Part shown: piece by piece, positions 58,692-64,000 of the stretch | Layout: each line of letters begins with the position of its first letter | How positions within the stretch are numbered: the first letter of the stretch is position 1 | NCBI GenBank assembly: GCA_945890485.1 | Contig: CAMDCN010000023.1 | Location: 1-64,000, forward strand | Direction of reading: 5' to 3' | DNA from: Candidatus Sulfopaludibacter sp. SbA3 | GTDB taxonomy: Bacteria > Acidobacteriota > Terriglobia > Bryobacterales > Bryobacteraceae | DNA: 64,000 nucleotides | Position numbers and translations under genes: made by a program | Notes under the pieces: model-generated | Databases searched by the model: none | Seen by the model: only the letters and a program-made list of their open reading frames with translations | What the model was told of the DNA's origin: nothing

Positions 58692-59756
58692 TTAGAGCCA
58701 ACGCAAATTTGTGACGTAGATGCCGAGTTCGCGGGCCTCCAGGCCGGCCGGGGGAAGGGCCTTATCGAGGGCGAAGTCGATTGGCACCATACGGAGGCCG
58801 GGTAGCGTTGCGAGGGAGCCGCTGAGCGTATGGACTCCGGCTTCGACGCAAACGAGCCGTGCGAACTCGACGCCGGCGTGCGAAGCAGTGAGCGTGAGCG
58901 GGCCCAACTGCTCGATGGAGTTCGGGTGGATGTAAAACTCCAGTTCGAGTACGGCTGGAGCAGCCGCCGGTTTGGGGAGTTCGGCCGTAAACTGGCGTGC
59001 GGTCCAGCGACCGGTGACCTCCCGGTCGTACCAGCCGCGGACGGCTAGCCAGTCGGCAAGGAGGTTGCTGCGGAGCAGGCAAAAGGCGCGGAAGTCTTCC
59101 GGGTCCTCTGTGGGGAAGACCTTCCAATCGAGGATGGTCCACCCGGTACGCTCACAAAGGCGGCGTAGCCCGGATTCAGAGAACAGCCAGTAGTTTGTCG
59201 CGTCGGCGCCACAGGCATCGCCCGGGCCAACCAGGTAGGCGAGCGGCTCGGCGTGGGTGGTGACGCGGGTGCTGAGCAGACAGTATTTGGCGTGCCCGGC
59301 CAAGCGTTCCATGGCGCCGAAAGGATTCTTCAGATGGTAGAGAACTCCCAGAAACAGGGCAAGGCCGAAGTCTTCGCGAGGCAGAGTCCAGTCGTGGTCC
59401 AGGTCAACGTGGTAGGCGAGGATCTTGGATTGCAGTGCCGCATGCAGCTTCCAGAAGCCCTTCATGCCGCTATGGTGGGTTTCCGTATTGTCGAGAACGC
59501 AAACCTCGCGGCCGAGCGATTCGAGGAAGAACGAGGTCGCACCATCGGCTGGGCCAATATCGAGGAGCGGGGCGGAGCCGGCGAGGTCAAGAACTTGGCG
59601 GTTGGGGCCGGTCAGCAGCTTCTCGAGGTGCTGCCAGTTTGCCAGCGAATCGTAGGGGTACCACGCGAAATCGGCTGGAGCGGCGCTGCGTTTTACTTGA
59701 TCAAAGCGGGCAGCGAAAGAGACGGCGCGCTCCCGGAGTTCGGCGATATCGAGCAT
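58692..59756 (-). CDS. Class I SAM-dependent methyltransferase (DUF1698/CmoB-like) with C-terminal beta domain
   Basis: A 354-residue protein. PLLDIGPADGATSFFLESLG (about 63-82) is SAM motif I, and LALFLGVLYHLKNPFGAMER the later motif, in the style of CmoB/DUF1698 enzymes. Residues about 270-354 form a beta-rich tail (LELEFYIHPNSIEQLGPLTL) not present in CmoB. The substrate is not predictable; a tRNA or glycan role is possible. The gene follows 27 bases after the large TamB-Omp85 fusion gene on the same strand, so it may be co-transcribed with it. Confidence 0.78.
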   Translation of the reverse strand: MLDIAELRERAVSFAARFDQVKRSAAPADFAWYPYDSLANWQHLEKLLTGPNRQVLDLAGSAPLLDIGPADGATSFFLESLGREVCVLDNTETHHSGMKGFWKLHAALQSKILAYHVDLDHDWTLPREDFGLALFLGVLYHLKNPFGAMERLAGHAKYCLLSTRVTTHAEPLAYLVGPGDACGADATNYWLFSESGLRRLCERTGWTILDWKVFPTEDPEDFRAFCLLRSNLLADWLAVRGWYDREVTGRWTARQFTAELPKPAAAPAVLELEFYIHPNSIEQLGPLTLTASHAGVEFARLVCVEAGVHTLSGSLATLPGLRMVPIDFALDKALPPAGLEARELGIYVTNLRWL

Positions 59757-59783: not shown

Positions 59784-62700
59784 TTAGAACGCTTGGCCAA
59801 TACTGATGAAGGGCCGGCCGAGCGACTCTCCGGGTTTGCGATCGAGTTTGAAGCCGTAGTCGAGCCGGATGAGAAAGAACGGGGTGCGGATGCGGAGCCC
59901 AAATCCGGCGGCTTTGCGGAGCTGCCAAGGGCGGAAGTCGCCGATGCCTTCGTAGACGTTGCCGAGATCGGCGAAGCCGACGCCGTCGAAAATCTTGAAG
60001 AGCGGGAACCGGAGTTCACTGTTCCAGACGAACATTGCGTCGCCGCCCGCAGGAGAGATGCCGTCCGAAAGGCGGGGACCGATGCCGTCCTGAGCGAAAC
60101 CGCGCACGGTGGTGCCGCCGCCAGCGAAGAAGCGTTCGCCGAGGGCGACCTGGCCGGTGGAAGAGCGGCCGGGAATGAGTCCCTGACCGCCAAGTCCTGC
60201 CGCGAGCCCGACGCGGAGGCCAGTGGCGACGATGAGGCGCGAACGGCGCACGTTGCGCTGCATGGGAAGCAGACGCGGCGTATCGAGGGCGATATAGCGG
60301 AAATATTGGCCGAAGTACTTCACGAAGTTGAGTTCGCTGCCGGACCACTTGGGAGCGTAGTCGAGGCCGTGCGAGGTGAACGAGCCGCGAGTGGCGTCGA
60401 GGATGTCATCGCGGGTGTCGCGGCTAAGAGACGTTGTGAATGGGGCCACGCGGAGATAGGCGTCAAAAAGCGGATCAGGGACATTCTCGTAGGTGTGCGT
60501 GTTCTCGATTCGGTAGCCGTAGTTGACGGACCAGACGTTGCGGAAGCGAGCCTCTTGCAGGATGGACAGGCCGATGCGGTCGGTGTTGAACCCTTCCCGA
60601 ATTTCGCGGCGGATGAAGCTGGCGGCCGTGGTGCGGAGGGGCCACGAACGGAGGAAGGGCTGCGAGAAGTAGAAGCGGCTCTCCTGCAGGTCGCTATCGT
60701 AGCGGAGGCGAACGCCAGCTACGCGGCCCATGCCGAGGCTGTTGCGATTGGTGATGTCGGCGATGCCGCCGGGGCCGCGATCGGTGTCGAAGTAAGCGCC
60801 GTAGTTGAGCAGGAATGGCCGGACCTCGCGGGCCGTAATCCGGAGGTCGACGGGCTGTTGGTTGGAACTGGAGTCGCGGACCGTCCGGTCGGTATCGATC
60901 AGCGAGTAGGCGCCGGTAGAGTATAACTGGCGACGGGTCTTGCTGAGTAACTGGAGGTCCATCGGGTCTCCAGGTTGAAGCGCTAACTGCTTGCGAACGA
61001 AGTTTCCACCGCGGCCGGAGGATACCTCCACGTTGCCGAGAACGCTCTGTTTGCCTTCGGAAATCTGGAGGGCGACACGAAGCTGACCGGGGGCGTTCGT
61101 CTCCCGTTCCAGCGCATAGGCAATCTCTGCGTCGTTGTAGCCTTTGTGGCCATAGAGCGCGCGAATGTTGTCGACGGTATCCTGGCGGAGCTGCGGGGTA
61201 TACGGCAGGCCGGCTTCGAGGTTTGTAACGGTGGCGAGTTCGGCGTCGGTGTAGGCGCTGTGTCCTTCATAGTCGACGCGGCTGACCCGATAGAGCGGCC
61301 CTTCGGCAACCGGAAAAACGGACTGGGCGGTGCGAGCCTCGCGGTCGACGATCAGTTCCGGCCGGGCGAGCTTGGCATCGAGATAGCCGAGTTCGTGGTA
61401 GAAGCGGGCCGCAAGGTCGATGATATGCCGGGGCTTCGTGATGGCTTCGTTTTCGGCTTTCTGATCGCGGAGCAGTTGCCGGAGGTCGGACTCCTCCACT
61501 TGGCTGGCCCCGGCGAAGACGATCTTGTAAGTCTCGAAGCGGAGGCCGGGTTGTATGTCGAAGGTTACTCGCTTGTGCCCGGCGTCGGCGGAATCAACCT
61601 GGTATTCGACCTTGGCTTCGACGTAGCGGTCGTTGAGTAGCTCCTGGCGGATTTCGGCGGCCGCGTCGCCGGCGCGTTGGACGTCGAAAATGCCGGCCAT
61701 CCACGTCTCCCGGATGCGTTTGCGCAGCGCGCGGGAGGGCGAGTAGCCTTCGAAAACGAAGTCGACTTGGGGGCCGGGATCGATGTCCACCTGGACGTTG
61801 ACGGCTTTGCCCTGGGTATCCCGCTGTAGTCGGACGCGCGATTCTAGCAGCCCGGCGCGGGCGTAGCGGTTCTCGATGCGGTCGATACCTTTGCGCAGGC
61901 GGAAGAAGTCGTAGGGTTTGCCTTCGCGGGCGTTCAACCATTTGCGGATCTGCTCTTCGGAGAACATGCTGCCGTGGTTGATGTCGACTTTGCCGAGCGT
62001 GCGGCGTTCGCGCTCGGAGGCGGTGCGGGGCGGGGGCGCTTCGCCGCCGAATTCCTGGGTACGGTTGAAATCGAAGCGATAGCTGTTGTCGGATTGCTTC
62101 AGGGTCCGGCCGCGGAAGCGGCGGCTGAAGTCGTACTGCCCGATGATGATCTGGTCGCCGCTATTGATCAGGTTCATCGAGTAGATGAGGCTTAATTGGC
62201 GGGTGAGATTCTGGCCCACCGTGAGCCGGGCGCTGGGGTCCGATTCGTTGGCGATCAGGCCGGGTTCGATCTTCACCTGCGAGATGCCGGTGGCTTCCTG
62301 GATGCCGCGGCCAAGGCTGCCTCCGACCCGGCCGGTGAGGTAAGAGAGCACCTGCTCCTTGGCGACATCGGTCTCTTCGCCTTGCAGGCGGTCGAGCGTG
62401 CGGCCGGTGAGAAGGACCGAGGCGATGTCCGGCTCCGGCAGCGGCGGATCGGAGGTGAGGAGGGTTTCGCGGTCTTTGCCGGATCCGGTGACGGCCAGCG
62501 TCACCTCGTAGCCGGAGGCTTCTGTTTTAGCCTGGAGGTCGAAGACAGGCTCAATGCGCTGGTCGCTGATAAACGTGATGACGCCGCGGTCGACGAGATA
62601 CTTTCGTTCGCTCAAGTACAGCTCACCGCCTTCCCCGAGGTTGACGCGCCCGGTAAGACCGGGACTGTAGTAGTTGCCGAGGACGCGGGCGTCGACTTCG

Positions 62701-64000
62701 ATTTCGAGCTTGGCGAGATTGTTGTTGACGACGAGCGGCTCTTTGGTTTTGACCGCGATGTTGTAGTCGAGCTTCGACAAAAACGGATTGCGCTCGTCGG
62801 TGAGTTCGAGTTCCGGGGAGCGGTTGGCCAGGTTAAAGAGGCCGTTTTCGAGGGCGAGGGTTTCGGTGTAGGAACCTTCGGCAATCTGGACCGAACCGGA
62901 GAGCAGCGTCCGCTGGCGCGGGCCGGGGGCGAGTTTGAGATCGAGGTTCGAGACCGTACGCAGATTGGCGGGGAAGTCGAGATAGACGTTGCGGGTGGCG
63001 AGGGTGAGTCCGGGGCCGCCGAGGACGCCCTTGTTCCAAGTGACAGTTCCGCCGCCGGTTAAGGTTCCGCCGTTGAGGTCCCCTTGCAGGCGGGTGAGGC
63101 GGAGTTCGTGGCCTTTGAGATCGGCCCGGAGGTTGAGCTTTTCGGCGGCGATGCGGGGAGAGTTGAGCGCGATCTCGCCGTCGGTGAGATCCAGGGAGCC
63201 GGTAATGGCCGGGTCGCTCAGGGGGCCGCGGACGGCTAGCTGAACTTTAGAGAGCCCGCGAGCCCGGAGGTCTTCCACGAACAGGCTGCCGATGCCGATG
63301 TCGGTGTTACCGGCCAGGTCGAGATTGAGCTGCGGTGTGCCGGCGAGTTGCGCCGTCCCGGTGAGGGCGAGCGCAGTGTTCGGCCCTTTGACAGCAAACT
63401 TTTCCACCGTGGCCATCCCCTTCGATAGCTTGATGGAGGAGAGACCGTCCTGTTCGAGATGGACGCGCTCATAGTCCGCTCTGAACTCGTCGATGCGGAG
63501 GGTGGCCTCGACGGCGTCGAGTTCGAGCTGGGGTGCGGCGGCGTTGAGGGTAGCGGAGAGCTTGCCTTGGAGGCCGTCGGGGGCGCCGGGGGCTTTTGAA
63601 AGATCCAGGTTCTGGATTGTCAGTTGAAGCCCCGCGGTGGAGCCGGAGCCGGTGAGAGTTCCGTTCATCCATTGGGCGGTCAGGGAATCAAGCGTGACGG
63701 TTTTGCCGGTGACGGTGGCTTGGAGATTGGCTTGGGTAAGGGGTGGCAGGTCGGGAGAGGTCACCGAAGCGTCGGCCACGCGAGCTATGAGATTCGGCTG
63801 AGGATCCTGGAGCTTGCCGGTGATCTGTCCCCGGACGGTCAACTGGCCGGTGGCTTGAACGGGCGCGTCCGGAACGAACTTGGCGAGGTCCGCCAGATTC
63901 GATTGCAAATCGACGCTGATGGCGCTAGGGAGGGCGCCGGAGAGTGCGAGTGTTGTGCCGGGCGCCGTGAAGGCGGCGGAGTGGATGGTGAGCTTCTCGG
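59784..64000 (-). CDS. TamB-domain/POTRA/Omp85-barrel fusion protein (5'-truncated)
   Basis: At least 1405 residues; the frame is open to the window edge, so the N-terminus is missing. Numbering here starts at the TTG codon at 63908, with more sequence upstream. Residues about 1-620 match the TamB C-terminal (DUF490) domain (KLDYNIAVKTKEPLVVNNN, LGEGGELYLSERKYLVD, SDPPLPEPDIASVLLTG, RLTVGQNLTRQLSLIYSMN). Five POTRA-like units follow (about 638-709, 713-787, 790-870, 872-952, 955-1027), then an Omp85 barrel (about 1030-1374) with the GGTTVRGF motif (1264-1271) and C-terminal Phe. TamB and TamA/BamA are usually separate proteins. It would span the periplasm and insert outer-membrane proteins or lipids. 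Confidence 0.9.
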   Translation of the reverse strand, partial: EKLTIHSAAFTAPGTTLALSGALPSAISVDLQSNLADLAKFVPDAPVQATGQLTVRGQITGKLQDPQPNLIARVADASVTSPDLPPLTQANLQATVTGKTVTLDSLTAQWMNGTLTGSGSTAGLQLTIQNLDLSKAPGAPDGLQGKLSATLNAAAPQLELDAVEATLRIDEFRADYERVHLEQDGLSSIKLSKGMATVEKFAVKGPNTALALTGTAQLAGTPQLNLDLAGNTDIGIGSLFVEDLRARGLSKVQLAVRGPLSDPAITGSLDLTDGEIALNSPRIAAEKLNLRADLKGHELRLTRLQGDLNGGTLTGGGTVTWNKGVLGGPGLTLATRNVYLDFPANLRTVSNLDLKLAPGPRQRTLLSGSVQIAEGSYTETLALENGLFNLANRSPELELTDERNPFLSKLDYNIAVKTKEPLVVNNNLAKLEIEVDARVLGNYYSPGLTGRVNLGEGGELYLSERKYLVDRGVITFISDQRIEPVFDLQAKTEASGYEVTLAVTGSGKDRETLLTSDPPLPEPDIASVLLTGRTLDRLQGEETDVAKEQVLSYLTGRVGGSLGRGIQEATGISQVKIEPGLIANESDPSARLTVGQNLTRQLSLIYSMNLINSGDQIIIGQYDFSRRFRGRTLKQSDNSYRFDFNRTQEFGGEAPPPRTASERERRTLGKVDINHGSMFSEEQIRKWLNAREGKPYDFFRLRKGIDRIENRYARAGLLESRVRLQRDTQGKAVNVQVDIDPGPQVDFVFEGYSPSRALRKRIRETWMAGIFDVQRAGDAAAEIRQELLNDRYVEAKVEYQVDSADAGHKRVTFDIQPGLRFETYKIVFAGASQVEESDLRQLLRDQKAENEAITKPRHIIDLAARFYHELGYLDAKLARPELIVDREARTAQSVFPVAEGPLYRVSRVDYEGHSAYTDAELATVTNLEAGLPYTPQLRQDTVDNIRALYGHKGYNDAEIAYALERETNAPGQLRVALQISEGKQSVLGNVEVSSGRGGNFVRKQLALQPGDPMDLQLLSKTRRQLYSTGAYSLIDTDRTVRDSSSNQQPVDLRITAREVRPFLLNYGAYFDTDRGPGGIADITNRNSLGMGRVAGVRLRYDSDLQESRFYFSQPFLRSWPLRTTAASFIRREIREGFNTDRIGLSILQEARFRNVWSVNYGYRIENTHTYENVPDPLFDAYLRVAPFTTSLSRDTRDDILDATRGSFTSHGLDYAPKWSGSELNFVKYFGQYFRYIALDTPRLLPMQRNVRRSRLIVATGLRVGLAAGLGGQGLIPGRSSTGQVALGERFFAGGGTTVRGFAQDGIGPRLSDGISPAGGDAMFVWNSELRFPLFKIFDGVGFADLGNVYEGIGDFRPWQLRKAAGFGLRIRTPFFLIRLDYGFKLDRKPGESLGRPFISIGQAF

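Follow-up and report, generated by a model that had tools for sequence, protein, structure and literature searches.

The 64,000-nucleotide stretch analysed here (the window: positions 1 to 64,000 of contig CAMDCN010000023.1 of Candidatus Sulfopaludibacter sp. SbA3, Acidobacteriota) ends within a gene that joins TamB, POTRA domains and an Omp85 barrel in one reading frame. In window numbering, the gene occupies 59784..66455 on the minus strand, starts with an ATG at 66455, and runs for 2,223 codons without an internal stop, encoding a protein of 2,223 amino acids and 241 kDa. This one uninterrupted gene is under selection and encodes an anchor helix, a beta-taco, a TamB domain, five POTRAs and a 16-strand barrel. 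The fused architecture is conserved in many Acidobacteriota, and in several lineages it is tied to one gene for a tetratricopeptide repeat (TPR) protein. Judged from its sequence, the fusion is probably a single-chain translocation and assembly module (TAM) that bridges both membranes.

Reading frame and selection

The window contains the 3' 63% of the fused gene, while the 5' end with the anchor-encoding part lies beyond it. The whole gene is readable because contig G000:C23 (123 kb) extends past base 64000, and the full frame was taken from L009:3785-10456:-. A preliminary description, made from the window, had placed the feature at 59784..64000. This segment is a real open frame, with complete codons for residues 820-2223 and the stop codon on the minus strand, but it is only the window-limited part of a gene that continues to 66455. 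The description had also proposed looking upstream of base 64000 for an N-terminal anchor, and a hydrophobic stretch is indeed present there at residues 5-26.

The frame was compared with that of a close relative, L051, which is 96% identical to the window protein over the last 1,124 residues. All 2,223 codons are collinear, with zero indels. The dN/dS ratio is 0.086 for residues 1-1099, 0.025 for the TamB domain, 0.041 for the POTRAs and 0.015 for the barrel. It is 0.046 across the TamB/POTRA junction (residues 1440-1520), and 0.105 for the 21-residue linker, a value that comes from few sites. In view of the purifying selection and the lack of any indel, a single translated product spanning the junction would be the simplest reading.

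Domain composition and predicted structure

Toward the N-terminus, DUF748/AsmA similarity is weak and stays under the Pfam cut-offs. The AlphaFold2 model of residues 1-1170 of L051 (39 sequences, mean pLDDT 88, pTM 0.49) has a helix at residues 3-24, followed mostly by beta strand. According to this model, the AsmA/TamB-like beta-taco region ends in the window at 63090..63998 (residues 820-1122; minus strand, as for all features below). It is followed by the TamB domain (62067..63089, residues 1123-1463), which Pfam PF04357 matches over profile positions 3-381 of 381 (E 3e-25, 89.6 bits versus a cut-off of 22.4). In the secondary structure of the AlphaFold2 model of residues 1100-2223 (see below), C-terminal TamB helices and strands extend over 62049..62435 (residues 1341-1469), with low pLDDT in the helix region. 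By comparison with E. coli TamAB (PMC12800296), these residues would correspond to the part of TamB that enters the TamA barrel.

A linker of variable sequence, placed at 61998..62057 (about residues 1467-1486) from the linker lengths over 68 loci, connects TamB to the POTRA arm. The Pfam POTRA profile PF07244 matches from residue 1487 (E 6e-31), and five copies are recognised by a profile made from the POTRAs of the fused family itself. POTRA 1 (61770..61997, residues 1487-1562) is supported by Pfam, the model and the family profile, and the other four by the model and the family profile: POTRA 2 (61545..61769, residues 1563-1637), POTRA 3 (61296..61535, residues 1641-1720), POTRA 4 (61053..61292, residues 1722-1801) and POTRA 5 (60822..61043, residues 1805-1878). 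The 16-stranded Omp85 barrel follows at 59787..60815 (residues 1881-2223), as indicated by Pfam, the model and structure matches, and ends in phenylalanine. PF01103 covers residues 1905-2223 with its entire profile (1-325 of 325, E 1.5e-36, 127 bits versus a cut-off of 24). The VRGF motif lies at 60096..60107 (residues 2117-2120), and its arginine and glycine are invariant in 63 aligned fused sequences.

An AlphaFold2 model of residues 1100-2223, built with 62 fused relatives (pLDDT 79, pTM 0.63), contains the TamB strands, the low-confidence C-terminal helices, five beta-alpha-alpha-beta-beta units and 16 barrel strands, as read from its secondary structure. In Foldseek searches, the best solved match is BamA (9mge_A, E 1e-40), with TamA (4c00, 3e-30) next. 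Structural alignments, in which mainly the POTRA/barrel part is aligned, give Z 24.5 for BamA 9mge_A (rmsd 12.6, 679 residues) and Z 22.3 for TamA 8us1 (rmsd 5.9, 518 residues). Pfam, the family POTRA profile and AlphaFold2 thus agree with the preliminary description, which had read TamB, five POTRA-like units and a complete Omp85 barrel from the letters alone, together with the VRGF motif and the C-terminal phenylalanine.

With respect to family membership, the fused protein has all Omp85 superfamily features (POTRAs and a 16-strand barrel, PF01103, a VRGF-type motif). Two of the TamB features of Heinz et al. 2015 are present, namely the PF04357/DUF490 domain and the long beta-helical or taco body, the latter as predicted from the L051 model. 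A third, the inner-membrane signal-anchor, may be represented by the hydrophobic N-terminal helix. DUF490 is not at the C-terminus, since 760 residues of POTRAs and barrel come after it. None of the equivalog models reaches its cut-off. The NCBI TamB model NF047952 scores 79.3 bits against a cut-off of 825, and the split TamB of the same genome also fails (80.0). The TamA model NF047950 scores 74.5 bits against 625, and there are five POTRAs, not three. For the BamA model TIGR03303, the score is 229.2 bits against 297, and fused barrels fall outside the BamA-type clade (see below).

Distribution of the fusion

In a phylum survey, 297 sampled Acidobacteriota genomes were searched with residues 1100-2223. 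By hand count, a single stop-free match spans the TamB/POTRA junction in at least 68 of them, from 29 family codes. Thirty of these 68 were retranslated, and no stop was found in any; in G116, also among the 68, the frame reaches a contig end before the barrel. A scan of all phyla drew on a named collection, with one genome for each species, and the best 80 of its 573 loci were analysed. All three parts share one frame in 68 of the 80. Five of the other 12 are truncated by contig ends, and seven have two genes, TamB then Omp85, which in three cases share a frame and are separated by a single stop. Only matches crossing the junction without a stop, or direct translations, were counted as fusions; open-frame length alone was not accepted, since for the split TamB of G253 it came to 2,411 residues although an in-frame stop lies between the two genes. 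The two surveys may have genomes in common, and loci L068 and L073 stem from one genome.

It appears hardly conceivable that the fusion is a sequencing or assembly artefact that joins two neighbouring genes. Such an error could be imagined in view of the seven loci with separate adjacent or near genes, three of them in frame with one stop, and of a similar split pair in G253. However, 68 loci from other records are joined, and the collinearity with L051, without indels and under purifying selection, also speaks against it. The artefact is ruled out on these grounds. The preliminary description had named a stop or frameshift between TamB and POTRAs, or separate genes in homologous genomes, as signs of an artefact. 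The joined loci are free of stops and L051 is collinear codon for codon, while two-gene versions do exist, as paralogues or outgroups rather than as evidence of an error. The counts of at least 68 of 297 genomes and 68 of 80 loci also exclude a fusion private to the window genome.

The titles of the records with fused loci point to Bryobacterales, Aminicenantes (Saccharicenans), Vicinamibacteria, gp6, gp18, gp22 and Polarisedimenticola. Two further carriers, L112 (titled Euryarchaeota archaeon) and L083 ("uncultured bacterium"), may reflect binning or naming problems. Within the window's genus the distribution is patchy (8 of 19 genomes). None of six other family members and 2 of 16 genomes from the wider order were found to carry the fusion; completeness is only 58-84% for some genomes in which it was not seen. 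Plasmid records gave 14 weak matches, none spanning 80% of the query.

Phenylalanine is the last residue at all 66 loci with a complete 3' end. An anchor helix is present at 50 of the 55 loci with a complete 5' end, and the five without it (L059, L071, L088, L092 and L102) all have shortened frames. Alternatively, the N-terminal helix might be a cleaved signal peptide, so that the barrel would be the sole hold and the taco would reach unfixed toward the inner membrane. A possible cleavage site would be the small-residue pair G-I-A near the end of the helix, seen by eye in the window protein. Across 39 N-termini, the consensus lacks a small-x-small pattern at this place and has LLHxPxxRR after the helix, and the TamB family carries a signal-anchor (PMC4494059). 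An outer-membrane-only protein is therefore unlikely.

The linker bears on the possibility that the product is a polyprotein, which would be cut in the periplasm so that its parts act as a two-part TAM at a fixed 1:1 stoichiometry. Within the last 1,124 residues, the linker belongs to the stretches of lowest conservation, which would favour this reading. Its sequences are varied and no motif was seen, yet its length, 14-33 residues over the 68 loci, is held at 14-19 in 64 of them, which suits a tether better than a cleavage site. Moreover, the signal peptide and two of the POTRAs that its separate sisters have are missing from the Omp85 part, although cleavage would need neither. Processing at the linker thus seems quite improbable.

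A neighbouring gene for a TPR protein

The gene directly upstream of the fusion, outside the window at G000:C23:66459-67091 (L009:10460-11092), encodes a 211-residue TPR protein. By eye, its N-terminus is signal-peptide-like, and a C-terminal motif, AYAHYYxGLAYxxxKRPDxMxxHFxxFLKLAPxAPEA, is conserved. At 44 of 69 loci a relative of about 200 residues is encoded next to the fusion, and at 42 of these the distance is no more than about 130 bases. In 21 cases the TPR gene is upstream in the same direction (in L050 it overlaps the frame), and in 23 it is downstream, facing the fusion. The recurrence of the same neighbour in two different arrangements argues for a functional link.

The association was also assessed across genomes. 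Among 41 genomes related to that of the window at genus, family or order level, a TPR gene scoring at least 88 bits is present in exactly the 10 fusion carriers and in none of the 31 others, where the best matches reach 61 bits and lie in longer frames (the 75 best first-look candidates were scored for nearly every genome). In G301 and G307, where the fused gene runs off the end of its contig, the TPR gene is on another one. The probability of such a coincidence would be about 1e-9 for independent genomes and 1e-5 within the genus, but the genomes are related and the true weight is smaller. At the phylum scale, a TPR match of at least 120 bits occurs in 16 of 30 fusion genomes, beside the fusion in 10 of them, as against 1 of 30 others (G011). 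This count was made by hand, with scores for the 50 top first-look candidates in nearly every genome, and "others" means no fusion among the matches listed.

The TPR gene is not a universal partner. Of the 45 fused loci with flanks of at least 800 bases on both sides, 31 have it and 14 do not, which rules out such a role; in another 11 fused loci that lack it, a flank is short or missing. The 59 non-fused loci had no TPR match, but they are mostly short and hence a weak control. The YfiO (BamD) profile matches the TPR protein only under the cut-off, so that the likeness of this partner to BamD is an analogy. By this analogy, the probable role of the TPR protein is that of an accessory bound to the POTRA/TamB part.

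On the other side of the fusion, 27 bases downstream, the window contains a methyltransferase-like gene (by eye; 354 residues, 58692-59756, minus strand). In L051, an amidase gene comes directly after the fusion in place of the methyltransferase-like gene, which suggests a recent insertion or loss.

Other TamB and Omp85 genes, and the origin of the fusion

The preliminary description had suggested a check for a separate BamA in the genome. A BamA gene is indeed present at C18; it encodes five POTRAs and is followed by an OmpH/Skp-like gene (by eye). In addition, contig C2 carries a split pair (L010:6683-14318), with an Omp85 gene (seven POTRAs) and then a TamB gene (1,316 residues). This order is opposite to that in the fusion and in most split pairs seen in the phylum, which are TamB then Omp85, but it recurs in the split pair of G217. 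Two more, shorter Omp85-like frames were found. The split pair and BamA exclude the fusion as the only TAM of the window genome; it is an addition there, whereas in other genomes it is the sole TamB found. The latter applies to 9 of 24 fusion genomes tested (G122, G019, G092, G101, G263, G119, G161, G071 and G046), in which the fused gene is the only PF04357 match in a search confined to TamB-type proteins. These nine genomes are 96-100% complete, and each has at least one further Omp85.

Both PF04357 matches of G005 lie in fusions. One is a five-POTRA fusion, and the other, L154 (G005:C185:1-3500), is of another type, with TamB, one POTRA and the barrel in one frame and the 5' end at a contig edge. 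Locus L167 (G064:C205:29300-37000) has TamB and five POTRAs in a 2,073-codon frame, with the barrel end recognised in another frame only; by its sequence, it is a broken or wrongly sequenced fusion. At L150 (G253:C32), L118, L119 and L121, split TamB and Omp85 genes are in one frame with a single stop between them, and this is the arrangement that would need the least change to fuse. Split TamB matches with an in-frame stop inside the match were seen in G315:C181, G303:C260, G313:C17 and G062:C80.

In a tree of barrels (87 rows), the 43 fused rows lie in one starred clade (98/92). The sole other row inside is L123, a sequence cut at a contig edge that could be fused or split. Nearest to this clade are separate Omp85s that partner TamB, while 16 acidobacterial barrels of the BamA type group by themselves in another starred clade (100/99). 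An origin of the barrel from the canonical BamA type has no support in this tree. In the TamB tree (66 rows), a starred clade (100/99) contains 32 of the 40 fused rows, and four lie outside, namely three from Aminicenantes and L154. A single common clade of all fused TamBs is not rejected (AU p 0.136). The fusion may thus have arisen once or at most a few times; a single origin is compatible with the trees, and the TamB tree hints at two.

The number of POTRAs provides a further clue to the history. Seven matches, two of them very weak, were found in each of seven separate partners examined, as compared to five in the fused protein, five in the BamA of the window genome and one in the aberrant L154. 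In a simple history, a TamB then Omp85 operon would have lost the stop codon together with the signal peptide and the two N-terminal POTRAs of the downstream gene.

Proposed function

If the fusion works as TamB does with a separate TamA, Sec would export the chain and the N-terminal helix would stay in the inner membrane, while BAM would insert the C-terminal barrel into the outer membrane. The beta-taco could then bridge the periplasm as a covalent groove for the passage of phospholipid, and possibly of unfolded outer-membrane protein, to the POTRA/barrel end. The linker would hold the end of TamB beside POTRA 1. As only about 16 residues separate the last strand of TamB from POTRA 1, a hybrid barrel in cis would form only if the POTRA arm curls and places POTRA 1 near the periplasmic mouth of the barrel. 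Alternatively, the TamB end may stay at POTRA 1, with cargo delivered there.

We consider it about an even chance that a stronger version of this model holds. In that version, the protein would be integral to both membranes at once, its helix continuous with the barrel. It would be the sole TamB-type bridge, in place of the two-part TAM, in several lineages, and elsewhere part of a two-gene module with a dedicated periplasmic TPR subunit, gained and lost as a unit. The preliminary description had proposed that one chain covers the whole path from the inner to the outer membrane. The predicted anchor helix and barrel would fit this proposal.

Several findings do not sit easily with a single-chain TAM. 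AlphaFold2 covered the chain as two halves, and at the pTM values given above their relative orientation is left unfixed. The N-terminal half is only weakly similar to solved lipid carriers: Foldseek with the L051 model gave four matches with E<=0.001, all to ApoB100, and the TamAB chain 9xdd_B at E 0.08. As these matches are weak, the assignment of lipid carriage is based on membership in the TamB family. In the TamB tree, four of the 40 fused rows (L096, L105, L110 and L113) are placed among separate TamBs, and in G064, which is one of the 24 genomes tested and also counted among the 68, the frame shared by TamB and the POTRAs lacks most of the barrel. Finally, 14 of the 24 fusion genomes tested, including that of the window, also have a separate TamB frame, and its retention suggests that the fusion may have a special task.

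Such a task could be that of a secretion or assembly device dedicated to one or few clients, with the TPR protein as the client chaperone, instead of a general conduit for lipids or outer-membrane proteins. The patchy occurrence in the window's genus, the co-occurrence with one TPR gene and the split pair in the same genome are in line with this idea. A possible client is a protein of about 1,100 residues that looks, by eye, like a TonB-receptor type and is encoded near six fused loci, for example downstream of L055. TonB-receptor-type outer-membrane proteins are common in these bacteria. Among neighbour families present in at least four loci, no client-like gene recurs beyond those six loci, and in nine of the 24 genomes no TamB match lies outside the fused frame; both points speak against a dedicated device. 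We therefore regard the device as rather doubtful and favour the single-chain TAM.

The single-chain TAM is of interest because it touches on two open questions, namely how phospholipids and outer-membrane proteins pass the periplasm, and whether TamB keeps hold of its Omp85 partner while at work. A covalent TamB-Omp85 chain fixes both stoichiometry and contact, so that in these bacteria the bridge cannot fall apart. The tie of about 16 residues between the TamB end and POTRA 1 also constrains the hybrid-barrel model. If the protein is anchored in both membranes, the chain would limit the width of the periplasm, and it would have to pass the cell wall while its barrel goes to BAM, which poses a topological problem.

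Comparison with known systems

In chloroplasts, TIC236 is a TamB homologue that is linked to the Omp85 protein TOC75 across the intermembrane space; unlike the fusion, the pair consists of two proteins. A TamB-Omp85 fusion was not found in the literature searched, the scope of which left out supplements and most subscription papers, in agreement with the impression of the preliminary description that the arrangement is not widely described. Ten Omp85 subfamilies have been defined, and the accessible text mentions TamB once, as a separate TamA partner, and does not contain the word "fused" (Heinz and Lithgow 2014, PMC4104836). Neither "fused" nor "fusion" occurs in the accessible text of PMC4494059, PMC11014939 (Goh et al. 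2024), PMC12045153 (TamL), PMC12800296 or PMC13382580.

In E. coli TamAB, as studied by cryo-EM, the C-terminal strands of TamB enter the TamA barrel, where the final one is paired with strand 1 of TamA; TamB touches all three POTRAs, and its cavity has lipid-like density (PMC12800296). The fusion shares a predicted anchor helix, the beta-taco, the TamB C-terminal helices and strands, the POTRA arm, the 16-strand barrel and the 1:1 ratio with this system. However, E. coli has two chains, encoded by tamA and then tamB, with three POTRAs in TamA and a free TamB C-terminus, whereas the fusion is a single chain with TamB before the barrel and five POTRAs.

Closer relatives are found in Acidobacteria, where a BamA-TamB operon and a second BamA have been described and TamBs of great length noted in a few cases (Heinz et al. 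2015, PMC4494059). The split pair belongs to the same protein families, and its Omp85s are nearest to the fused barrels, but its genes are separate and all seven examples examined have seven POTRAs.

A third parallel is the Borrelia BamA-TamB-BamD/BamB assembly, in which a five-POTRA Omp85 likewise goes with TamB and a TPR protein (BamD), and for which a closed POTRA ring has been modelled (PMC13382580). A ring of this type makes a curled five-POTRA arm and a cis hybrid barrel conceivable for the fusion. Unlike the fusion, the Borrelia assembly has separate chains and uses the organism's own BamA, and a kinship of our TPR protein with BamD would be by analogy. Compared with all these systems, what appears to be new is a single-chain TAM variant of known families, accompanied in several lineages by a TPR partner, whose function, topology and lack of cleavage we infer from its architecture.

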